From Heliopora coerulea (Eukaryota > Cnidaria > Anthozoa > Scleralcyonacea > Helioporidae), in contig JASJOG010000085.1 of the NCBI GenBank assembly GCA_030142905.1, positions 496,001-560,000 of the forward strand: a stretch of 64,000 bases of DNA. Direction: 5' to 3'. Of the stretch, positions 6,001 through 51,521 are shown in pieces. Within the stretch, counting starts at the first letter, position 1. Every line of letters begins with the position of its first letter. The position numbers and the translations under genes are program-made. The notes beneath the pieces are model-generated. The model ran no database searches. It was not told the origin of the DNA and was given only the letters and a program-made list of their open reading frames with translations.

Positions 6001-6640
6001 AAATTTTACACTTTATGGCGCGATTCAGAGCACTGCTGTGTGATTGGTTGACAAGCCGAGACTTGTGATTGGTCTACTTGGTCAAAAAATTATCCTTCCG
6101 CTTAGTTGTTCTACAAGCTGTTATTTTTATTTCGATAATATTGAACCAAACTAGCCAATTACAGCTTAATTCAAGGGGTAGGCAACTTACTTATACAGTA
6201 ATAACAACTAAATAAAGTTTTGGTGTCTTAAGTCAGCAAGCAATGAGTTTAGGTAGTACAAAAGCTTTGATATGTAATGGAATGTTTGACAGTTGACAGA
6301 AACAAGATAAGTTTTGAAGCATTTACAAAGAAGTTAAATCTATTTAAGTCACATTAAATTCATAAATGATATGCTCCTGCTACCCAAATAACATTCTAAT
6401 GAAAAGTGAAAGGTAGATAACTAAAATGGACCAGTATATAGGCTGCTGGCAAAGCTTATTTTAAGCATGTATGAATACACATTTCTGCACTGAAAATAAA
6501 CTAATTAATTAAACGTAGCTGTCTATGGCATCTTATTCCCAGCAAAAATTGATTTTCTCGTATTACATACATTTCATTTTTTGAAGTAACGTAAAGTGTC
6601 TTTATTTATACTGGATAACCCTATCAGCTATCTAAGTTGG
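1..6640. other. AT-rich non-genic stretch, no supported gene
   Basis: No long open frame, no recognisable domain and no convincing run of spliced exons is visible on either strand. It could be long intron or 3' UTR of a gene off the left edge. The part around 5050-6000 is less AT-rich and holds a tgacgtaa CRE-like octamer near 5107, so it might be a promoter region, but no coding exon can be attached to it. A short hairpin lies at 3553-3615. Confidence 0.4.
3553..3615. repeat. 17-bp perfect inverted repeat (hairpin)
   Basis: The arm aagaaaagctataccag (3553-3569) is matched exactly in inverse orientation by 3599-3615, with a 29-base loop. It lies in otherwise featureless AT-rich sequence and no transposon ends are recognisable. 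It may be the remains of a small MITE. Confidence 0.7.
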
Positions 6641-6872
6641 TCTCCCTAGAGGTCCAGTAAGGGCCTACCCTCATGGGTCCAGTGTTATGACAGGAGGAAA
6701 CCGGAGTACCCGGAGAAAACCTGCGATGCTTGGTAGTGTCAAACTGGGCAACACTCTTCTAACATGTGACTAAGGTAACTTTTAATCAGATTACTGCACG
6801 CGGCCGGAATCGAACCCTAGTCACAGTGGTGAGCGACACGTGCACTACCACTGTGCCACCAGCACCCCAAGC
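6640..6872 (-). mobile_element. tRNA-derived SINE
   Basis: Read on the - strand, the segment near 6872-6795 has a tRNA-like head: a box-A-like ggtggcacagtggtagtgc and a box-B-like ggttcgattcc. Downstream at 6694-6722 is a motif containing gaggaaaccggagtaccc, which resembles the conserved central domain shared by several metazoan SINE families. I recall that domain from memory and could not check it. Ends and target duplications were not resolved. Confidence 0.55.
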
Positions 6873-7844
6873 ACCAGCACGTATGTCACCGAATGTTAAC
6901 CGCTGATCATTATCAGAGCAAACAAAAAAATCTTATTTTATTCCTTTTTCAACATAGCCAAGCCGCGTGACTCGAAACCATCGGAGTTGCCTATCCTTCT
7001 CTTCTAGGTTCTGTTTTACTGAACGAGTTATTAATTTTTAACGCTCACTTCCCTATTTTCTCTGCAAATTATCCCCGACAAGACCATTTTTTAGACAGTT
7101 ATGGGTAACCATATGTTCATATATATGTGTATCATCAAGTATTTCTTAGAACAGGCCAGGCCATGGAATGCAGTAATTGAGTAAATTAATCTCGCCAATT
7201 TCAGTAGGTTATCTGACGCGGTAAGATTGAACAATGCGATCTTTGCTGACCAGTCTGTTACAGCCTTCCAAGAGGATGCACTCGTGGTCGCTACCTGTAT
7301 TCCTTACTCATACTTTTCGACAGGTCTTTTGGAAGCTAAGCTTAGTTATACTTCATTAGGACCGTTTACACTAGAGAAAATAAGGCGCAGCTGATTTTCC
7401 CTCAAGCTGATTTCCCCCCCAGCTCGGGGGGGTGCCGAGCGAAAATTTCCGAGTGATAAAGATTTTCGTTCCAATCTTTCCGATTCAAATCAAAATATTT
7501 GCTATCTGACAAAACAAAGGAGGCAACAAAAATTAACGAGGAAGCCTGTTTAAAATCCGGATAAGAAATCAAAATAAAAGTATATCCGTTATTGGCAAAG
7601 GTATTATATAAGTAAAAATCTCACATATACAGGCTTTTGTTATCTATTTTGTTATGTAAACTTTTTCTGAGAGAACAGCTTGAGAGCGTGCATATTAAGA
7701 ACATAATTACCAAGCTACCACAAACACATCATTGATTAACATACTGTAAAAATAGACGACATATCGAGACTAGCAAACTAGAAGTGCATATGTCTACCAT
7801 CTATACGAACCAGTACACAAATTTAACCTTCGCTCACCATCTGA

Positions 7845-7917
7845 GTCTTTGTAGCTCAATGGTTAGAGCGTCTCACCAGCGGTCAGAAGGTTACGGGTTC
7901 GATTCCCGTCAAGGACT
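7845..7917 (+). tRNA. tRNA-like sequence (probable pseudo-tRNA in a repeat)
   Basis: The 73-nt segment folds as a cloverleaf. The 7-bp acceptor stem is gtctttg/caaggac with one T:G pair. It has a canonical D arm (tagctcaatggttagagc) and a T arm (acggg-ttcgatt-cccgt). The anticodon stem has a C:C mismatch, and position 33 is C instead of the invariant U, with AGC in the anticodon position. Because it sits in a dispersed repeat, I read it as a repeat module and not as a working tRNA gene. Confidence 0.5.
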
Positions 7918-8100
7918 CAAAGTTTTTCTGAAAGAACAGCTTGAGAGCCTGCGTATTAAGAACATAATTACCAAGCTACCACAAACACATCATTGATTAA
8001 CATAAAAATAGACGACATATCGAGACTAGCAAACTGGCAGTGCATATGTCTACCATCTATACGAACCAGTACACAAATTTAACCTTCGTTCACCATCTGA

Positions 8101-8173
8101 GTCTTTGTAGCTCAATGGTTAGAGCGTCTCACCGGCGGTCAGAAGGTTACGGGTTCGATTTCCGTCAGGGACT
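8101..8173 (+). tRNA. tRNA-like sequence, second copy
   Basis: Same 73-nt cloverleaf as the copy 256 bp upstream, with acceptor gtctttg/cagggac, intact box A and box B, and anticodon position GGC. It shares the C33 and the C:C mismatch in the anticodon stem. Probably a repeat-borne pseudo-tRNA. Confidence 0.5.
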
Positions 8174-8479
8174 CAGAAAGTTTTTCTGAGAGAACAGCTC
8201 GAGAGCGTGCGTATTGAGAACATAATTACCAAGCTACCACAAACACATCAACTTCTATACAGTTTATCAATTTAATAGAATTTCCGTAGTTCGCTTCATT
8301 TAAATAGCGTTGATTCTACGGAGCCATTGCTTTCTGAATGGATGAATTATTTTCCGAATATCGGAAATTTCAAAAAGTTGGAGGGTGAAACAGCCCCCAA
8401 TACCCCGCTTTGCTACTGCCCTGCCACAGGGCTTTGTATTAACACGCAGTATGGGTGTCGTCAATTGATAAAACTCACT

Positions 8480-8705
8480 GGGAGATCTCAGCATCCTCAT
8501 GGGGAGATATCCGGTGACCCTGTTTCAGTCTCATAGTCTTAGTTTATAGTCTTATCTCGATCATTATTACCGTGTTCTAGCAGTAATCTTGGAGAGATAT
8601 CTGGTGACCCTTATTTCAAGGGAGATACCCAGTGACCTTGTTTTAATTTTTATTTATCAGGGAGATATCCGGTGACCCCTAAATCTAGGGGAAATACCTG
8701 GTGAC
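8480..8705 (+). repeat. Degenerate repeat of a gggagatatccggtgacc unit
   Basis: The 18-20 base motif gggagatatccggtgaccc occurs in five or six variants, near 8500, 8592, 8620, 8660 and 8690, with irregular spacing of roughly 30-90 bases. It lies about 200 bases upstream of the promoter of the LRRC8-like gene. Function unknown. Confidence 0.65.
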
Positions 8706-8895
8706 TCTATTTTAGTTTTCAATTAAGAAATGTTTTCCAGCAACTTGGATGTACCTTTCGCTGGCCACCAAACCAGAGTAGCACTACCTATAAATGACTA
8801 ATAGTTCACCTGGTTGCGAAAAAAGACTATTCACCAGTAATCAACTTTATTTTCAACCTAAAATGCTAAATTCTCTTTACAATGGAAGCAAGGTA

Positions 8896-8938
8896 ATTGG
8901 CCAATCACTGAGTGCGAAAGGCGCAACATTTTATATAA
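8896..8938 (+). promoter_or_regulatory. CCAAT and TATA elements upstream of the LRRC8-like gene
   Basis: An ATTGGCCAAT palindrome (8896-8905, a CCAAT box on both strands) is followed by TATATAA at 8932-8938. The coding start is at 9095, about 155 bases further on, which leaves room for a 5' UTR of about 130 bases. The assignment as core promoter is inference from motif and spacing. Confidence 0.5.
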
Positions 8939-9094
8939 TTTATTCAAAATTCATGCAGTAGATGATAATCGACGAGAGCCCTACCCACAGGCTTATTAAA
9001 GTATAGCTACTATGTTGGTAAACTTTGATATCCTTGACAAAATCCCGTATTTCAGCCAAGAGATAAAGTTGACCACCGCCTTGAAGGAGACACA

Positions 9095-10847
9095 ATGCTG
9101 CCCTTGACCGAGTTTGCGAAATTTGAAAGTGCAAAATCTGCCGTCCAGATCGTTAAGCCATGGTGGAACTTGGTCACCGATTATCTCCTGAAGCTCTTGC
9201 TAATAATCTCTCTTCTGGTCGGAGGAATGGAATTAACGTCTGGCAGTTTTGATTGCCTACCAACTGTCGACTGCTCTTTGCCGAACAGCCGTACGTTGTT
9301 TTCAAAGGCAAACTATCACAACGCATGCACAGTTTTTTTCACCTCTCGAGAAGCAATGGATTGTAAGGGAACAACAGTTGCAGTTGAGCTTAAAAAGTAC
9401 CCGGCTCACTATGCAAAATATGTCAACTCCGAGTGCAGAAAAACCGCCGTTCATTGGTTTGCTTCCTACTTTTCTTTTATCCTTTTTAGCCAAGCCTTAT
9501 TTCTTTTTGTACTGGATAACTTCTTGGTTAAATTTCCACCCACAGCGTCAGTTATAGAAACTTTCTCTATTCTAGTCATTGAATGCTACGAGTCACCGGA
9601 AACTAGTTTTTGTTTACCACACGAGCTGTTCAACCAACCAGACAGAAACGAAAGAAGTGTAGTTGATAGGAAGCCTGACAAACAAAGATCTGGAGAAAAC
9701 GAACAACTCCTTAGTAACAAACAGCAGGACAACGAAAGCTTCCCCTCCTCGTCTAAAGCTCGAAGTAGTGAGAGTAAGATTTCTGTTGACATTGCGACAG
9801 CTGTTCAAGTTATGGCTTTGTACGAGAAAGTAAAGCGATTTATGGAGCGCATCAAATCGTCTCAAAAGATATGGATAGTGTATCTTATTCAGACTTCAAT
9901 ACAAATCTGTTTAACGGTGGTTTTCGTCTTCTTTAATGCATTCCACGTGACGAGCTTAAAAGGATCAGTGAAGTGCTCAGTGGACAGTGTGTGCATTCCA
10001 GTGGTGCACGGTCATTTTACTTGTACCCACAACCTTCAGCCAATGTTCGAAAGGGCTTTGATTGCATTCATTGTAGTTTTAAGTTTATACTTACTTAGTC
10101 CTATAGGGGTCGTGATACGGACAATTAGCAAAAACAAGTCCGACAGTGACCACAACATAGCCAATTTCCCTAAATTGGAAAAAGACGCGAGATTCCTGTT
10201 GCAATTATTGGAGGCCTATGATAAATCATACGCCCAGCAGTTTCGTAAATACATGTCGGAGAATTCTGAGAAGCATTTGAAGGCTAAAATTTTGAAAATG
10301 CACTGGCCACTGTCAAAACTAGAGGATCATTGTAGTATTAACGAAACTGAGGGAATGACACTTAGTTTGACCGGACTCTCTGGAATTCCGGAGACGTTGT
10401 TTGACCTTACCAGTCTTAACAAGTTGGAGCTAAAACGATGTGAACTGCAGCATGACGAATTTCATCAAATTGAGAAATTGCGCAACTTAGAAGACCTCGC
10501 CCTAGTTGAATGCAAACTTAATAAAATTCCGGAGAAAATTTTATGCATGACCTGGCTAAAAGTTCTAACTCTCAAGTATAATTCAATCAATACCATTGGA
10601 TCTGACATAGGAAAGCTCAAAGAGCTGACAACTTTGGATTTAACTGGTAATGAACTGGTAAGCATCGATGAATCCTTGAAAAATCTTGGTAATCTACACA
10701 CACTTTACCTTTTCAAAAATCCAGAGTTGGGAATAGCGGCAATCAAAACAGCTTTGGAATGCAGAATGTTGAAAAATTTCAAATTATCTGATTCCAAAAT
10801 ACAAGAGCTCAATGGCGATGTTTTGAGAAAGTACAAAAAACTAAATG
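9095..10847 (+). CDS. LRRC8-like channel/LRR block; first coding exon of a probable LRRC8-kinase-KEN fusion
   Basis: The ATG at 9095 opens a protein closely following the LRRC8 (volume-regulated anion channel) plan. Residues 1-30 contain the KPWWNLVTDY stretch next to the first membrane segment. Hydrophobic segments lie at about 31-46, 121-142, 259-283 and 321-341. Extracellular cysteines such as C54, C60, C114, C294 and C310 and the HWFASYF stretch before the second segment also match. Leucine-rich repeats run from about 420 to 575; family members usually carry about 15, this one only five or six. The uninterrupted frame ends with TAA at 10862-10864 (589 aa). A consensus donor, g|GTAAGT, sits at 10848 just before that stop, and no AATAAA follows closely, so I favour splicing to the kinase exon at 12950. 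The unspliced 589-aa reading remains possible. Confidence 0.82.
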
Positions 10848-12949
10848 GTAAGTTGACACTTTAATATTAAATCAGTAATACAATAATTGATTGAGCAACA
10901 GATTTTAAAACATTGAGATACCATAATGGTAGCTAAAGAAACACAACTGCTTTACGATTCATCAAATACGATGCACTTTTATGTTGTCTGAAGTTATGGT
11001 ACGTATGCAAACATCTCTCAACCTTCTCTTTCTCTCTTTGATGAAAATTGTTTGGAACAAATTTTGAAAAAATGTGTTCTTTTTAAATTTGTGCTAGAAT
11101 CATCCTTAGGCTAACATGAAGGGAAAAGTGCATTATTTTCCTGCACTTTCTTTGGCCCAATACACCATGAACTGAAACTCCGATTTGGCACAAGGTCTTA
11201 TAGAAACACTAACCAGCAAGGGAGCTTAAGTTTCTGGGATAAGTTTGCGGACGTTTTGATGGTAATTTTATTTAAAAAATGAAAGTAAAAGATGGCAGTT
11301 TCAATTAACTAAACTGGGTCGTGCCTAGACAGTGATATAAAAGTGGGATGCTGTGTAGGCAGTATAAAACAGCACAAAAAGTTAAGATTAGTAGTCTGCA
11401 ATCTACCAACCTTTTAACATTTTGGTCATACCTAGCTTTCACCAGAAAACTGCAAATATCACTCCAAAGTTGGGTTCTTCACATGAGCAGAAGTTCTTTT
11501 TAATATTTGTCCTTGTTATCTTAGTTATCGGGAGTAACAAGGGAACATGACAAGTAGAAAAGTGCACGGTAAATATGGTACAAAGAAATACCTCACCAAT
11601 CTTTAAAAGATTCTCCGAAAAATGGATTTTTTCCTACAGAAACAGTAACTGCAAGTTTGTGGAAACTAGATAGTTTCTGCTCCGTTTTCATATCTCTTTG
11701 AATACCAGATGACTAAGGTCGACTAGAGAATCTTGTATTTCGGCTGCATGATTAATAAACCCGTTAACCCATTCCATGTTTAAGCTCCCTTATCTGTTTT
11801 TACCAGCGGCTCCTAAGCAATTGCCTGTAATGCCTGTTGGTTAATTCGTAGCTGTATTGTAAACGTTAATCGAAAAAATATGTTGACTTTCGCAGTGTGA
11901 GAAAATCATAAAATTTTCTCTCTATTACCCAGAGAATAAGTCTGAAATTGAACTGAAACACTACATATCTTCACGGATAATCGACAACTTGAAGTGAGAG
12001 TTTCTCGTTCACCAAATATGGATAAAAATCAAAAACTTTTGCAATTAAATCAGGAGCTAATTTAACGGAGCAGGCTGGCCTCGTTAACCGGGCTATCCCG
12101 ATCTGTGTACAAATAGTAAAGTTTTTCAACCATTTGATTACATGGTAAGTAGGCCAGTCAGCTATGCTGGCATCCCGGTTAATTGTTGCAACTCAGGCTA
12201 GCCTGGTTGATGGGGCTAAAAATTTCCATGTAACCGTTTCATCGTGGTAACGCAGGATGAAAATAGTTTGATAGATACGTACTCGTTTCACCTGCGGATC
12301 TATGAATGCGCTTATCTGTACGATTGTCCGTTTAACAGTTCAGCAAGTCAGTAGCCTTTCATAGCCTATAATTTAGCAGCCATTTTCGCAATAGATTACG
12401 TTAAAGTTTGATAGATCCCATTTAGTAAAAATGAAAGAGATAAGCTTAAATGGTGGCAACAACCTGAACGTTAGTTTGACGATTGCCAAAGTTCGCCTCG
12501 TAAAATTTTCACCCGGCATCTGGTTTTTCCACCAAGGATTCAACCTTGGCACCAAATTTTCCCCAGGGCAAATCTCGACGAATCAACCGGCCTAGGATTT
12601 TGTAGGAATCACCCATGTAATAGCTCAGTGAAACTCATTCCTGTTAACTGGACCAGCTCTCTTCATGTAATCAGAACCTCAGTCGCCCAGTTGTTGGAGC
12701 AGCAGTCTGGATACCCGATGGTGCAAGTTCAAATCACGCTCGGCTCAAGGGCGTACACAGGCGTCAAGTTCAGGAGGGGAGGGGGGGCAAAGTCCCCAGA
12801 TTTCCATGTAGTAATGAGACTTCCAAATATGGCTGGGTTGTTTATAGTGTTCATCGTCCATCAAGTGAACTTGGGGGATTTTTATACCCTCATGAATTTA
12901 CCTCTTTCCGAAAGGCAGTCTCTGAGGTTCATCCTTTCATTCTTTGCAG
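10848..12949 (+). other. Probable intron between LRRC8-like and kinase exons
   Basis: The 2,102-base interval starts GTAAGT and ends in a pyrimidine-rich tctttgcag acceptor. Both junctions are phase 1: one base is left at 10847 and two bases open the next codon at 12950. It holds a degenerate tRNA-like segment (12670-12755, gcccagttgttggagcagc to gttcaaatcacgc) and small repeats around 12060-12250, but no other coding exon I can see. Confidence 0.6.
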
Positions 12950-13857
12950 AGGTCAGTTGGACAAAAAGATCTAAAAAACATGAAGAAAAGTTTGCCAACC
13001 TCACGAAACTTCCTCGTGAAAAGTTGATCAGGATTGGAACTTTCTATGTACGTTTTGATCAAGAGTTTATGATTGGCAAAGGTCGCGATGGTACACGTGT
13101 TTACGTTGGTTTATCAGATGATGGTAATGAAGTAGCCGTGAAACGTATGCTAACCCACACTAGTGAAGACGTGGCCGGAAACGAAGAAAGAATATTGAAT
13201 ATGATGGAAAAGTCGCAGCATATCGTGAGATATCTTTCTTGCACAACTGATGAAACTCACACTTTTACATATCTTGTCCTTGAGTTGTGTGAAGAAACAT
13301 TGGAGGATTACGTTCATTCACTTAACCAAGAGGAATTAGACCTCTATGCTCCACGTCTGATACGTGAAATACTGACTGGATTGCTGACACTTCATACGGG
13401 TAAAGTAACGATTCTCCACAGGGATCTGAATCCATGGAACATTTTGGTCGACGTCGAAGGTCATATGAAGTTGGCAGATTTTGGTGTGAGCAGAAGGCTC
13501 AGCCAAGATAGTTCAACTTACAATAGTGCAGGAAATAAAGGAGCCAGATATTGGAGAGCTGTGGAGTCAGTGTCCTTTGAAGAAAAGGATAATGGAAAGG
13601 TGATATATAAAAGGAAATCGGATGTTCAGGTAGTAGGAATGCTCGCTCATTTCATTTTAACAAAAGGTGGACATCCGTTCGGAGATGAATATAACCGAGT
13701 GAAAAATTTGATTGAGGGTAACCCAGTTGATTTAGACAAATTATCCGACCCTTCAGCCAAAGACCTCGTCTCCTGGATGCTCCAACCCAAGATCGAAGAC
13801 CGTCCTTACGTTGAAGAAGCTTTGACACATCCCTACGTTCAGCCACGTGATCGATAA
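12950..13857 (+). CDS. IRE1/RNase L-type protein kinase domain, second coding exon of the fusion
   Basis: The exon begins after tctttgcag. The frame extends upstream to 12628 but has no kinase similarity there and opens with GTG, so it lacks a natural start. Kinase motifs, numbered in the fused reading: glycine loop GKGRDG near 627-632, catalytic-lysine motif VAVK with K649, HRD at 741-743 followed by LNPWNIL, DFG at 761-763, and a HPFG segment after the activation region. The APE motif is altered (WRAVES). Kinase sequence of this type, followed by a KEN domain, is characteristic of IRE1 and RNase L, where nucleotide binding drives dimerisation of the ribonuclease. The reading frame meets TAA at 13855-13857, immediately before the KEN segment. 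Confidence 0.75.
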
Positions 13858-14247
13858 TTTAGTATGTTGGTGTGTTTTGGCAATGAACCAGAGATCAAGG
13901 ATAAGGATACCAATTGTGATGTGGTTAACCAGCTGAATGAAGATTCCTCGTTGAAAAGCGTTGATTGGATATCCACCGTTGATCTTGCAGTCCTTAACTA
14001 CATATACGATAATAGTAAATACAAGGATAATAGTATTACTAGTTTGGTAAGATTTATTCGAAATGCATGGGAAGATTGGCGTGACCAGAAAACTCCAGAA
14101 GACGTTCGGAAGAAACTTGAAGATCCAGAAGAATCTTTTCTGACAAGGTTTCCTATTTTACCAGTTGTCGTTCACAAAGTTATAAGAAGAAACCGAGGTT
14201 GGAGGAAAAGGCCACGGCTGAAGGAGTTTTTCACACTTTCCAATTAA
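13858..14247 (+). pseudogene. KEN (IRE1/RNase L ribonuclease) segment behind an in-frame stop
   Basis: The frame of the kinase continues past the TAA without a shift for 129 codons to TAA at 14245-14247. The sequence matches the KEN fold: SITSLVRFIRN corresponds to the helix carrying the catalytic Arg-Asn of IRE1 and RNase L, and a Tyr about 12 residues earlier (KYK) matches the conserved nuclease Tyr. The position of the catalytic His (H910 in human IRE1-alpha, H672 in human RNase L) is Asp here (codon 14074-14076). Downstream, TRFPILPVVVHKV matches the usual KEN end. Either the protein stops after the kinase, the stop is read through, or this allele is a recent pseudogene. An ATG at 13864 could restart translation. 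Confidence 0.65.
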
Positions 14248-14750
14248 GACAAACTGTCGTGGAATTGGATTTTGCTGTATTTTGTAGACCTTTGGACTGT
14301 TTGTTAATACTTAGCGTTGTGCCGAAGGTGTACTTGATTAGTAAAACAAAAAATTCTCAAAAACTTTTAATGGTCAAGAGGGAAACCCAGTCTAACCTAA
14401 AGTAAGTTTGTGTTAATGTAGAGCAGTAGTCTATGTAATGAACAGGAATTGTTTTGAAGTGTTATTAAGATTATGACATGTATAAAGGAGTTTGTGTGTT
14501 TAGTATTAAAGCCGGTGAAGTTGCGCAAGGCCTATAGTTTGTTCTTGTGAGAAACAAGTTTCGAGTTCTTTAAGAATCATGCCTACAAGCAAAGTTTTGA
14601 TCTGGACTATGGACAAGAAAACTTCAAAAGCAGTTCAAGAAAAAATTAAGGACCCCGTTGAATATTTACAAAAGGGGTTAGCCATTTTGTATCAGTTCAG
14701 TGGGAAGCTAGGAAGCATGTGAGTAGATGTATAATAAACATAAGATATTT
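14248..14750 (+). other. Probable 3' UTR of the kinase-KEN gene with AATAAA
   Basis: After the KEN stop the sequence is non-coding in appearance. AATAAA occurs at 14733-14738, a plausible polyadenylation signal about 485 bases downstream. A 47-codon frame (14579-14722, beginning MPTSKVLIW) lies inside. It has no recognisable relatives and is probably incidental. Confidence 0.45.
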
Positions 14751-34600: not shown

Positions 34601-37600
34601 GTTTTATTCGAACTCATCAGCAATTCACAGGGAAAACACAAAGGAAATCAGTACTCAGGCGTTGCCAATTGCGTTGCAGGCCGGAATAAGCGGAAGGTTA
34701 CACATATGTCGAACTTCCACCTTAGCTCACCATCTGAGTCTTGGTAGCTCAATAGTTAGAACCTCTCACCGGTCATCAGAAGGTTGCGGGTTCGATCCCC
34801 TTCTGGGGCTCAGAAATTGTTTTCTGACAAAAGAGCTTGACGAACGTTCATCCATCATTCATCATTCTATTTACCAGCATTCTATATTTCCATCGTCGCT
34901 TTTTTTATCTCTATAACTGGGCTGTGGGATTACCCCACATACGTGTGCTTACGAAGCGATTTTCTTATTTGCGCAGTTGGTTACTGTGCATTGCAGAACC
35001 AGGGGGTTATGGACTTACGAACGTCGTGTACACAGTAATCATCTCATTCGACATTATAGTCATATCGTGGCTGCCTTATAGGCATGCAGCACACATGTTG
35101 AACCTGCGTCTTAGCTCGCCATCCGAGTCTCGGTAGCTCAATGGTCACAGCGTCTCATGGGTCAACAAAAAGTTACGGGTTTGATCCTCGTCTGGGGCTC
35201 AGAAATAATTTTTTGGGGATATGCGAGGTTGAAGATCGTCCACAGATCGTCTTTGATATCACGAAGCTCCTACATGTTCGTTGTGTACAATATTCATCAC
35301 AAATGAGCGAAAAACTAATAATTCGAACTAATTAAGGTATTATTAGTGGCGGTGATTTATCGACCAATACTCTTCTCATATTTTTTTATCAGTATTTGGT
35401 GCTTCGTGACAAAAAATAATGGGTGAAAGAACTCTAACGACGAAAAAACCGGCTAGGTCTCATATTAAAATAGCCAGTATGAGGAGCCCAACAAAGTGTC
35501 TTTCTTTGTTTGCTTCTTGCCACACAGAACAATACAGTGAAGAATCAATGAAAGTACAGTTGTTTGTTATTGGAAGAATAACTTTCCAGTCATCAACCTT
35601 GTCTTGAAGCATCTCATTACAGTTTAACTTATCTTTAGACAAACTAACTAGTAATCACATGCGGTTGATTATGGTAAGGCAATTGGTTAAAAAAAAAAAT
35701 GAGCGTTGATCTTTGTCATGGTTCGTCAATATGACCTGCATGCATATTAGATTGCCTCGTCGCATTTCTTGGCAAACACTTTTGTTAGAACAAACCACAA
35801 TTTCCACTGTAGCCGAAGCTTTGTCGTATTATGGCTGCTACGTTTATGTAACCGTGCTGCATTTGGAGAATCGTCCCATGGATTGCTGTTTAGTACTTGT
35901 AAAACAACGACCAAGCTACCTGGGGATATCTTCACGACATCCGGGAAGCTAAGTTGTCGTTCTTAGTTTACTTGTATGACCAAAACTTTACCAAGAACAA
36001 TTGAACCTCCGTTAAGTGACCACCCAAAATGTTAGGTGGTCGCTAACCGGAGGCAGTCACTTACGAGAGATCAGTCCATAGGATGCTGAAAGTCATGTCA
36101 GATAGCACTTATAATAGCTATACAGCCTTTTAAACTACTTACAAACGTGCTTTATGTCATATGAAAATATAAGACACACTGAATTTGATTTGCTTTATGC
36201 TATATTAACCTTCGGTCTCCTGGCATAGTAAGTTTCAACAGCCTTTTAATTCGCCGAGAAGCTTGACCAGACACGTGGGCAAGTTGCTTACAGTGTATTA
36301 CTATCCTTGCCTTGTGTGATCGCTGATGCGATGTTGAAAATAATTGGCATAACAGTAGTGCAATGGTCGTGTATAGGAAGTGGCCACAGTCTTTTTTTAT
36401 AAATTTTAGTGATTCGATTTTTAGTGTCGATTTTAGTGATTCGATCTCGAGGATTTCAATACCAGGAACCGGTGATCAGTTTAGAGAGGTGTTCATACAG
36501 GAAGGCTTGATTGTAGATGACGTTATTGCTAAATTACCATAACAATGGCATTTCGAAAAATAGCGAAACTTGGGTGTGGATCTTATTCTTGCTACAAATA
36601 TGACATGCCGTCACGTCCTTTGAATGTTCTTATGCTAATGAGAAAGACAACATAAAAAGGCCGCATCTTGCAGTTTGGAATTATTCAATTTGAGCTGTTG
36701 AACTATTCTGGTACAGTTTGGCTGTTTGTGTCATGGAAGAGTCTACGATCTGCCCCGTTGACTACGACGAATCATTTTACGCTGAAGACGAGTTGAAACC
36801 GGACAAATATCGACTTGTAGAAATATCAAAATCGGTAGAGCAGTTGATGAGCCCAATCTACAACATCAAGCAAAAGATAGAAGATGATTTACGAGATTTG
36901 ACGATCAAAGCGGATGACTTCATCGATTTTAAGCTCGACACGATGAAGATCTTGTCAAGGCTGACGGAAAAACTACCCATTCATAAATTTCTGAAAGGAA
37001 GCTATACCGGTTTCTTCATCGCGATGCTTCATTCAGAGGTCATCCTACAGACTACGAAGAACTTAGAAGAGCAAAAAATGGTAAAAGAGATACTAAGAAA
37101 CTTTACAAACGTGCTTCTGGTCATCGCAAATGCATTAAAGATGCAAGGTTGGTCTGTTCCAGATTCGAAGCTTGAAAGACAACACTTCCCGAACTTGAAG
37201 AAAACGTTGGTGTCTCTTGGCGAGGAATATATCAAGGAAAATCCAAATTCTGCACTGCTAAGAACACACAAACAAATAATAGTCAACTTTCAGATAATTA
37301 AGGAAATGGAAACTTCAATCAGAAGGCTACGCCAATTGATTGAAAAACTGAGAGAAAACAGTTATGTCAACACGGTGACGAGAGAAGGAGAAAATGTGTT
37401 TCATTCTGAGATGATGGAGACGGCCACGGTCTGGGGAATGTTTTGGGATTTGGAAAACAATTAAATGGTCGTCTTATGATTCACTGGCTTCGCGTTTACT
37501 TTCATACTTACAAACTCTGCATGTACGCCAGAAACTGTTTTAGGAAGAGCTTCCTGGTGAACTTCCAGACAGTTCTTGTGAAATCGACCTGCGAACCATT

Positions 37601-49600: not shown

Positions 49601-51521
49601 AATACCTTATGTTGTTTACGTCAGTTGCGTTACTCTTAAATATCACTCCTACGCTTGCTAACCACTTCAGATATGTACCATGTGTACTGTTCTAACATCG
49701 TTATATAAATATCAAAATTCTTGCATTAGAATTTCGCCTTTGGGAAGAAACTTCGTGTCCGATGCAAAATTATTTATCAGTTTAAAATAGCACCCATCTT
49801 TAATAACCTCCCCTACAGGAAAACAACTCTCGTAGCTTCATAGGCGGAGTAAGACATGTGAGAATAGTTTAGAACGAACTGAACGTTTTCTTAATTCCTC
49901 CATTGTATTAATTGCAGACAATCACGAACTCTGTTGCTTGTACGTTAGAATTTATTAGCATCAACGTTTCATTGGTCGGATGTCGGGCCGTTGTTTACTT
50001 GTTAGAATCTGTCGCGTCGTGCAAAGAGAAGAGGATTTAGTATCTAAATGGTAAACTATGCCGCAGGATACGCAAACAATACGAAAATCTTGGCTTTGTT
50101 TCAAAACTAAGTCTTTAATAACTATTAGATGATGAGCGAATTTATTTCCCTTCATGAACGTCCATCGGAAACGAAAGTTACGTTTGTCTTAAAATTGATG
50201 GGATTATATTACACTCTTATTGCCTGGAAACCTCGTTGATCGTTTCACCAAGCCGTTTGTTTTAGTCGGCGCAGCGCAGTTTCTTTTCTTCGTATGCATC
50301 TTCGAAAATATTTCACCATCTTTGAGTGTGTTTACCATCAGTCACTTCACCGTAGGAGATCTAATTACAAACTTTGGATGATAAGTATATCCGCTAATCC
50401 GTCTAAGTTTCGTTTTTGTCTTTAAATTTCTCGGGAACTACAACGTGAGGTTGAAACACCAGAAATTCCACACAATGGTTGCTTATCTTCTTGATTCTTT
50501 TGTTCATTGGTTCTTTGTTTGCTTAGGTTGTCAGTTGGTTAGCTGACTGATTGGTTCGTTGGTTGGTTAGTTGGTTGGTTAGATTATTTTGTCATTGGTT
50601 AAAATATTTTGTAGGTTGGTTTTTAAATAGTTATATGTTGTTCAGTTAATTGATTAGCCAATTGTTTGGATAACTTATCGATTGCTTGGGTAGTTTTTGA
50701 TATATTAGTTCATCAGTTGATTGGTTGGCTATTTGGTTAATTGATTGGTTGTTTGGTTAATCTTTGTTTGCTTGGATTGTTAGTTGGTAAGCTGGTTGGT
50801 TGGTTGGTTTGGTTGGTTTGGTTGGTTGGTTGGTTGGTTTGATTGGTTGATTTGATTGGTTGGTTGGTAGGCTGATTGGTTGGTTTGATTGGTTGGTTTG
50901 GTTGGTTTGGTTGGTTGGTTGGTTTTGTTGGTTGGTTGGTTTGGTTGGTTGGTTGGTTGGTTGGTTTGGTTGGTTTGGTTGGTTGGTTTGGTTGGTTGGT
51001 TGGTTTGTTGGTTGGTTGGTTGGTTGGTTGGTTGGTTTGTTGGTTGGTTTGTTGGTTTGTTGGTTGGTTGGTTGGTTGATAAATGGTTGCTAACTTGGTT
51101 GGTTTGATAAATGATTGCTTGGTTGACAATTGGTTGGTTAGTTTGATGAGTTTGTCATTAGTTAAACTATTTTGTATGTTGTTTTTTAAATAGTTATATG
51201 TTGTTCAGTTAGTTGATCAGCTAGTTGTTTGGATAACTTATTGACTGCTTGGGTAGTTTTTGACAAATTAGTTTATCAGTTGATTGGTTGGTTATTTGGT
51301 TAATTGATTGGTTGTTTAGTTAATTGGTTGGTTGTTTAGTTAATTCTTTGTTTGCTTGGGTTGTTAGTTGGTAAGCTGGTTGGTTGGTTTAGTTGATTGG
51401 TAGGTTGGTTGGTTGGTTTGATTGGTTGGTTGGTAGGCTGGTTGGTTGGTTTAATTGGTTGGTTTGATTGGTTGATTTGGTTGGTTTGGTTGGTTGGTTG
51501 GTTTGGTTGGGTGGGTGGTTG

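Follow-up and report, generated by a model that had tools for sequence, protein, structure and literature searches.

An LRRC8-type exon precedes kinase and KEN frames

Within a 64,000-nt stretch of the Heliopora coerulea genome (GCA_030142905.1, JASJOG010000085.1, positions 496,001-560,000, forward strand; hereafter the window), an LRRC8 TM and LRR exon is followed by a proposed phase-1 intron, a kinase exon, an in-frame TAA and a KEN frame (Table 1). The upstream ORF at 9095-10864 encodes 589 aa, with Pfam matches to Pannexin_like (PF12534, 201 bits) at residues 1-334 and to LRR_8 (41.6 bits) at residues 488-542 that correspond to the N-terminal four-helix TM region and C-terminal LRRs of the LRRC8 family. 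The whole protein matches LRRC8A (E = 2e-68) in an alignment that begins at residue 1 and whose main part spans LRRC8A residues 1-527. Pfam detects no ankyrin match in this exon, so the RNase L arrangement of ankyrins N-terminal to the kinase is absent, and the LRRC8-type exon occupies the place where IRE1 would have a luminal sensor and single TM segment. An intact LRRC8 ORF 98% identical to that of the window lies on another contig (P0001). Elsewhere in the window, seven of nine other ORFs gave no Pfam match; a weak LytTR match lies at 36694-37461 and a PT repeat at 50740-51204.

Table 1. Features of the LRRC8/kinase-KEN locus in the window and of the second pair on C339
Feature	Position	Strand	Basis or remark
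Upstream flank	6432-8500	+	Blocks 6432-6593, 6879-7647 and 8250-8500 common to C71:146; blastn
Dispersed repeat inserted in upstream flank	8497-8837		At least 39 other scored copies, 92-96%
77-bp upstream block	8879-8955	+	CCAAT-like and TATA-like motifs, read by eye
LRRC8-type exon	9095-10847	+	584 codons and one further base, coding for Pannexin-like TM region and LRRs; Pfam, LRRC8A alignment
Splice donor GTAAGT	10848-10853	+	Kept in C339 copy and near-identical duplicate C71:146
Proposed phase-1 intron	10848-12949	+	Both ends and inner block homologous to C339 intron
Stop codon used if donor skipped	10862-10864	+	LRRC8 ORF end
Intron stretch without C339 counterpart (presumed insertion)	11035-12794		Comparison with C339 intron
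Dispersed repeat within intron	12052-12672		Inside 11035-12794
Kinase exon	12950-13854	+	Pkinase with Lys, HRD and DFG all intact
In-frame TAA between kinase and KEN	13855-13857	+	ORF reading, paralogue comparison
KEN frame (Ribonuc_2-5A)	13858-14244	+	53.7 bits; open for 129 codons after TAA
C339 LRRC8 frame	140593-138758	-	Second pair; last exon base before donor 138775
C339 kinase-KEN frame (K136)	137522-136140	-	No stop between kinase and KEN

An earlier sequence-only reading had proposed that the two frames are spliced together, and its description of the junctions holds. The donor 14 bases before the LRRC8 stop (ATG/GTAAGT, cut after 10847) matches 8 of 9 consensus positions, a quality that GT-bearing 9-mers reach at 33 of 127,982 positions on the two strands of the window; the acceptor at 12949/12950 is preceded by pyrimidines at 13 of 15 positions, and the phase is 1 at either junction. 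Another donor-like site, at 12144, was set aside by inspection as being in the wrong phase. The downstream frame at 12952-13854 is a Pkinase (118 bits). This frame had been said to have no ATG ahead of its conserved part, which proved wrong, as it has in-frame ATGs at 12718, 12814, 12829 and 12892, all four ahead of the acceptor and within the presumed intron. Viral contigs scanned with the window kinase yielded nothing useful.

The assignment to a kinase-KEN effector was borne out at the level of domain matches and failed at that of an intact frame, because the TAA separates kinase from KEN and RNAWED stands for the RNxxxH nuclease motif, with Asp in place of the catalytic His; the earlier reading mentioned neither. 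The TAA position is open in the related kinase-KEN genes K136, K160, K753 and K760, as well as in K154, which carries another stop inside the kinase, and active-site Arg and His are both kept in K136 (RTASEH) and K760 (RNAREH). The window copy is probably RNase-dead, since the TAA cuts off KEN and the KEN His is Asp, and the RNA cleavage envisaged as its output is unlikely. Window kinase-KEN sequences give dN/dS values of 0.41-0.49 against four paralogues.

A second LRRC8/kinase-KEN pair has a homologous intron

A second pair on C339 agrees with that of the window in order, donor, acceptor and phase 1, is 46-58% identical to it in amino acids by part, and joins kinase directly to KEN in a 461-aa frame without a stop. 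No in-frame ATG lies ahead of the kinase in this open frame. Neither the HRD nor the DFG motif of the C339 kinase retains its Asp, and the domain is pseudokinase-like; the C339 KEN retains Arg and His, with Thr in place of Asn. The C339 copy is the better candidate for an active form. dN/dS between the two LRRC8 exons is 0.60, and K136 and the window kinase-KEN fall in one clade (94/90).

With unmatched stretches omitted, the two introns (342 and 370 nt) align end to end at 75.6% identity (235/311), with a score of 82.5 against a mean of 2.8 and a maximum of 23.5 in 200 shuffles, a score that is optimistic because the omitted stretches were picked from BLAST blocks. Untrimmed, the window and C339 introns share three BLAST blocks (E = 4e-13, 2e-11 and 0.008), and what is clearly common to both is confined to these three blocks, about 0.35 kb. 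In the inner block no frame is open throughout, and its ATG is unconserved between the copies. Homology from end to end leaves hardly any space in which the kinase could have a promoter and first exon of its own; the best candidate for such an exon, a short ORF with an ATG near 10926, is unconserved in C339. The last 26 codons upstream of the acceptor look alike in the two copies, so the kinase exon may start further upstream than 12950. At the DNA level, homology between the window kinase exon and K154, K160, K753 and K760 sets in no more than about 20 bases from the acceptor.

Related copies occur with and without a partner

LRRC8 and kinase-KEN genes are also found apart. The LRRC8 copy nearest to that of the window (C71:145.7-147.5 kb) is a broken duplicate, and no kinase-KEN was found downstream of it in 140.0-145.7 and 122.0-126.4 kb (127.3-140.0 kb left out). 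Conversely, no LRRC8 lies directly upstream of four close kinase-KEN paralogues. In the frame that runs from the upstream stop to the acceptor, four of the six kinase exons of the clade have no ATG (K136, K154, K160 and K760), K753 has one and the window has four. The same genome contains ankyrin-kinase genes (C137), one with a KEN match in an open frame (C137:489828-490172), and a kinase-KEN gene on C29 (L030) in whose upstream frames no sensor was recognised by eye.

Parts of the upstream flank recur ahead of LRRC8 at C339_139 and ahead of K154 and K760, and the flank was found once with no LRRC8 or kinase-KEN gene read beside it (C339:186.3-184.8 kb). The 77-bp block nearest the LRRC8 exon is common to K760 and K154 (83-84%) and to C71:146, and went undetected by blastn at C339_139; from its motifs we infer a possible promoter role.

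LRRC8-caspase relatives join the effector at the same point

A frame on C149 combines LRRs with Peptidase_C14 (161 bits), and in the public protein P0153, as in a paralogue with one frameshift, LRRC8-LRR continues into caspase. The window donor falls at the very point where these proteins run on from the LRR end into the effector, and the donor itself is absent from both caspase-type copies on C149. An OTU-like tail suspected by eye on an LRRC8 homologue on C4 was unsupported by Pfam. Among the public matches listed, no protein combined Pannexin_like with KEN (0/32 and 0/10, scored among the 7,999 candidates with the most words in common; 0 among 120 of 167 matches listed). Neither an LRRC8-kinase-KEN nor an LRRC8-caspase fusion is named among the literature matches listed, mostly the best part of the matches.

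The locus as one gene, and its alternatives

We consider it likely that a single gene occupies the locus, or did so until recently, and that it encodes an LRRC8-type membrane protein with kinase-KEN spliced onto its cytosolic LRR end. The proposed fusion gains strong, though indirect, support from the C339 pair, the homologous intron, the partly shared flank and the LRRC8-LRR-caspase analogue. These sequences are best read as a small family of LRRC8-effector genes with a lineage-specific LRRC8-LRR-kinase-KEN member, which appears to be degenerating in the window, where the product would be an LRRC8-LRR-kinase protein without KEN, unless the gene is decaying.

That the window gene is already a pseudogene yielding no working protein is a serious alternative to which we give slightly less than an even chance, and one compatible with the one-gene explanation for C339. 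The stop before KEN and the lost His point this way, as do dispersed repeats in flank and intron, the broken C71:146 duplicate and the stop in the kinase of K154. Against it, no stop interrupts the LRRC8 or the kinase frame, the kinase residues are intact, KEN stays open beyond the TAA, and P0001 preserves a near-identical intact LRRC8 ORF.

Two separate neighbours, with LRRC8 ending at 10864 and the kinase having its own promoter and first exon in the 2.1 kb gap, are unlikely. An ATTAAA at 10866, just past the stop that follows the donor, could signal an LRRC8-only transcript; it is present in C339 and absent from C71:146. In-frame ATGs such as that at 12892 could serve a separate kinase gene, and kinase-KEN genes standing alone need some other start. 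The window kinase is also closer to LRRC8-less genes (83-86% identity) than to K136 (57%), which we count against the fusion, together with the altered active sites of both pairs, the LRRC8 and kinase-KEN genes that stand apart, the single flank copy beside neither, and the missing Pannexin_like-KEN combination among the public matches listed. The two-gene reading is opposed by the short common part of the introns and its inner block without an open frame, by the ATG-less C339 kinase frame, by conservation of the donor in C339 and C71:146, and by the LRRC8 flank that partly recurs upstream of LRRC8-less kinase-KEN genes.

It is very improbable that the LRRC8 exon splices instead to some different 3' exon that went unrecognised, such as one with further LRRs: the window LRRC8 is short (589 aa against 806-820 residues in LRRC8A chains) and LRRC8-only ORFs of similar size are known (P0154, P0155; 580-599 aa), but the pairs clearly share no more than three intron blocks, the inner one without an open frame, and caspase-type relatives pass from the same LRR end straight into the effector. 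Chance adjacency was set aside, as the introns are homologous and 2 of about 13 LRRC8 loci (17 matches merged) are followed on the same strand by a kinase-KEN match no more than 3 kb away.

Returning to the one-gene explanation, we infer a spliced LRRC8-kinase transcript and the following mechanism. An LRRC8 oligomer would keep a set of effector tails next to one another on the cytosolic side, and they could pair once swelling, ionic strength, a ligand or a partner alters the channel or its LRRs. Proximity may then switch the tails on, by analogy with the dimerisation that activates IRE1, RNase L and initiator caspases. A sister gene with caspase points to a membrane sensor whose stress or death effectors are interchangeable. 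Whether LRRC8 subunits in this animal lineage are, besides channels, modular membrane platforms, carrying caspase or kinase-KEN as interchangeable proximity-activated effectors on cytosolic LRR tails, we judge evenly balanced; in such platforms, a change in volume, ionic strength or immune ligand could trigger proteolysis or RNA decay without adaptors. If true, welding the channel to a caspase or an RNase-type effector would couple membrane state directly to cell death or to the decay of RNA, and such genes could serve as a natural experiment on how the cytosolic LRRs of LRRC8 move on activation. The immune messenger cGAMP also passes through LRRC8 channels (PMC8204762).

Comparison with known systems

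The window protein shares its start methionine, Pannexin-like TM region and LRRs with the LRRC8A-E anion channel subunits, and differs in a shorter LRR region, fast evolution and a frame that leads via the donor to a kinase-KEN exon. LRRC8 is the textbook volume-regulated channel, a family typified by hexameric anion channels that open at low ionic strength or on swelling; the classic kinase-KEN sensors are IRE1 and RNase L. IRE1 (ERN1) has kinase then KEN, the module order of the window, and K760 matches about 370-390 residues of IRE1 chains of solved structures (best E = 1.7e-42); in the window, LRRC8-LRR replaces the luminal sensor, and KEN is cut off and His-less. RNase L has the cytosolic kinase-KEN module in common with the window gene, which has no ankyrin repeats and a predicted membrane anchor in LRRC8. 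LRRC8-LRR-caspase proteins (P0153, C149) share the LRRC8-LRR front (44-47% identity) and the attachment point, and differ in carrying Peptidase_C14 in one frame with the LRRs, without donor or kinase-KEN. The fusion had been cast as a third kinase-KEN architecture, a count that falls short because public proteins also join kinase-KEN to WD40 or TPR repeats (P0033, P0035; Pfam). In these proteins the kinase-KEN is about 40-41% identical to the window module, and WD40 or TPR repeats stand where the window gene has a channel.

Results

The window frame at 9095-10864 is an LRRC8 homologue: a Pfam profile search identified a Pannexin_like domain, corresponding to the LRRC8 transmembrane (TM) region, and LRRs, and LRRC8A aligned from the first methionine onward (E 2e-68). 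Kinase and KEN (Ribonuc_2-5A) frames lie downstream after a gap of 2.1 kb, and sequence inspection confirmed that the two parts are bordered by a good donor after 10847 and a good acceptor before 12950 in compatible phases, as the sequence-only reading had proposed. Both domains of its proposed kinase-KEN effector are present, but not in one intact frame, as an in-frame TAA at 13855-13857 parts kinase from KEN, and its statement that the kinase frame has no ATG before its conserved part did not hold, with four in-frame ATGs (12718, 12814, 12829 and 12892) upstream of the acceptor. In the kinase, Lys, HRD and DFG remain intact; the KEN motif RNxxxH reads RNAWED, with the His lost. Because of the TAA before KEN and this motif, the window copy, if spliced, would encode an LRRC8-LRR-kinase protein and not a working nuclease. 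We take the animal to be a cnidarian, probably a coral; named matches of the window kinase include octocorals (Xenia, Dendronephthya) and also fish and Branchiostoma.

Coordinates of LRRC8, kinase-KEN and caspase features
Feature	Location	Strand	Detail
LRRC8 frame, 589 aa	window 9095-10864		Pannexin_like 201 bits, LRRs (Pfam)
Kinase frame	window 12952-13854	+	Pkinase 118 bits (Pfam)
KEN frame	window 13858-14244	+	Ribonuc_2-5A 53.7 bits (Pfam)
LRRC8 frame, 612 aa	C339:140593-138758	minus	open frame
Kinase-KEN frame, 461 aa	C339:137522-136140	minus	stop-free, follows the LRRC8 frame
LRRC8-LRR-caspase gene (L020)	C149:204291-206997		one frameshift in TM part
Broken LRRC8-LRR-caspase copy	C149:210.2-211.5 kb		linker as in L020

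A profile search of the 430 Mb assembly (769 contigs) listed 36 KEN matches and 17 Pannexin_like matches, the latter merged into about 13 loci with C71:771 kb and C339:188 kb taken as one stretch (100% overlap). On contig C339, a second LRRC8/kinase-KEN pair, formed by LRRC8 copy C339_139 and kinase-KEN part K136, has the same junction phases as the window. Identity between the pairs is 57-58% for LRRC8, 54-57% for kinase and 46-51% for KEN, with dN/dS of 0.60, 0.44 and 0.44, respectively; evolution is fast in both halves and looks neutral in neither. K136 has lost the HRD Asp and DFG Asp, and its KEN motif, RTASEH, keeps Arg and His and has lost Asn. LRRC8 and kinase-KEN genes form a tandem cluster on one strand at C71:745-776 kb and C339:130-199 kb, probably one genomic stretch given a 14.8 kb overlap between the contigs at 100%.

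BLAST comparison of the window and C339 introns revealed three matching blocks, at positions 1-42/1-46 (E 0.008), 61-187/1029-1152 (E 2e-11) and 1948-2102/1206-1352 (E 4e-13). Only 54 bases separate the second and third blocks in C339; in the window the distance is 1.76 kb and includes dispersed repeat sequence at 12052-12672. With unmatched stretches trimmed away to leave 342 and 370 nt, the introns align end to end with 235 of 311 aligned positions identical and a score of 82.5 against a mean of 2.8 and a maximum of 23.5 in 200 shuffles, an optimistic comparison since the BLAST blocks guided the trimming. Part of the unmatched window stretch is this dispersed repeat; supposing that all unmatched stretches were inserted (deletions in the other copy being possible), LRRC8 and kinase exons would have stood about 0.35-0.4 kb apart in the common ancestor, leaving little room for a separate kinase gene with its promoter, first exon and intron. 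Neither copy has a reading frame that stays open across the inner intron block. A similar open frame spans the last ~80 bases before the acceptor in both (26 residues, 62% identical), and the kinase exon may therefore begin somewhat further upstream than 12950.

A sister architecture on contig C149 joins LRRC8 to a caspase: one frame runs from the end of the TM region through LRRs into Peptidase_C14 (161 bits), with most of the TM region one frameshift away in the adjoining frame. In its public counterpart P0153 (891 aa, ENA contig), a single frame holds Pannexin_like, LRR and Peptidase_C14 domains, and the protein matches LRRC8C and CED-3/caspases in solved structures. In alignment, the window donor falls where the C149 protein and P0153 run on towards caspase; LRRs continue into an effector here in the caspase proteins, and we infer the same for kinase-KEN. 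The window, C339_139 and C71:146 (the last duplicating the window LRRC8 almost identically) share the donor GGTAAGT, which both caspase-type C149 copies lack.

Flank blocks upstream of the window LRRC8, at 6432-6593, 6879-7647, 8250-8500 and 8836 onward, recur colinearly at C71:146, the last continuing through the LRRC8 exon to 11081. Parts also occur upstream of C339_139 (7034-7403, 8424-8500) and of the kinase-KEN genes K154 and K760 (about 6881-7400, 8424-8500, 8879-8955), where no LRRC8 match lies between shared flank and kinase. At C339:144 kb and 188 kb, the LRRC8 copies lack this flank directly upstream. For a flank common to LRRC8-bearing and LRRC8-less kinase-KEN genes, the simplest reading would be one transcription unit that lost, or gained, the LRRC8 exon, a reading drawn from the loci named here. 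Three caveats apply: a flank copy at C339:186.3-184.8 kb adjoins neither LRRC8 nor kinase-KEN, flank piece 6606-6790 has a further, isolated match at C339:170.9 kb, and window 8497-8837 belongs to a dispersed repeat, about 340 bp long, of which the genome has 39 or more additional copies at 92-96%.

Several observations weigh against the fusion. LRRC8 and KEN co-occurred in 0/32 and 0/10 public proteins, scored among 7,999 candidates sharing most words, and in 0/120 among the best 120 of 167 matches listed. The public protein P0001 is 98% identical to the window LRRC8 frame, and its 2.4 kb contig is too short for a kinase exon at window spacing. The C71:146 LRRC8 has lost contact with kinase-KEN in the downstream stretches read (C71:140.0-145.7 and 122.0-126.4 kb): its intron picks up again some 18 kb off, with no kinase-KEN within the next 4.4 kb. 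This duplicate, which reaches from the window flank through the LRRC8 exon into the beginning of the intron, spans C71:126.4-147.5 kb, broken by about 18.3 kb at the equivalent of window 11079-11081 (3-bp overlap). An ATTAAA just 3′ of the LRRC8 stop, kept in C339 and not in C71:146, makes an LRRC8-only isoform possible.

In a 20-row kinase tree, K136, the window kinase-KEN and paralogues K160, K753 and K760 form one clade, whose support of 94/90 falls slightly short of the tool's star and which neighbours further kinase-KEN genes from this genome; left out were K154, owing to a stop inside its kinase, L004 and L005, each without a single intact frame, the KEN genes on C200 and C270, and further KEN matches. 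Also weighing against the fusion, catalytic motifs are eroded differently within this clade, HRD reading HMN in K136, HMD in K160 and HKD in K753/K760, and the KEN His being lost in the window. Against K160, window 12932-14264 has a kinase dS of 0.17 versus a KEN dS of 0.48, suggesting gene conversion of the kinase part. Public kinase-KEN proteins from ENA contigs (P0033, P0034, P0035 and P0037), related to the window module, have N-terminal parts that are WD40, TPR or unassigned.

Discussion

The available text of a HEPN survey links KEN to kinase, ankyrin, CCCH, UBI and BRCT, notes KEN expansions in Oikopleura and monocots, and contains no KEN-LRRC8 link (PMC3710099); the available portions of PMC9573974, PMC13319465 and PMC4715348 describe no LRRC8/kinase-KEN fusion. 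Our literature search, with subscription papers mostly outside its scope, named no such LRRC8 fusion among the matches listed, and the KEN family name appears in none of the best 10 of 4,973. According to the portion available of PMC8204762, cGAMP also passes through LRRC8 channels.

The sequences show domains, order, phase and conservation. In a possible mechanism, an LRRC8 oligomer would hold several effectors next to one another, and a shift in LRR conformation would allow kinase-KEN modules, or caspases, to pair and become active. Cell volume would be just one possible trigger. Activation by proximity is common to IRE1, RNase L and initiator caspases. Elsewhere in the genome, C137:482.4-490.2 kb (L027) encodes two long single-frame ankyrin-kinase genes identified by Pfam, the second with a KEN match within its frame, and both resemble RNase L.
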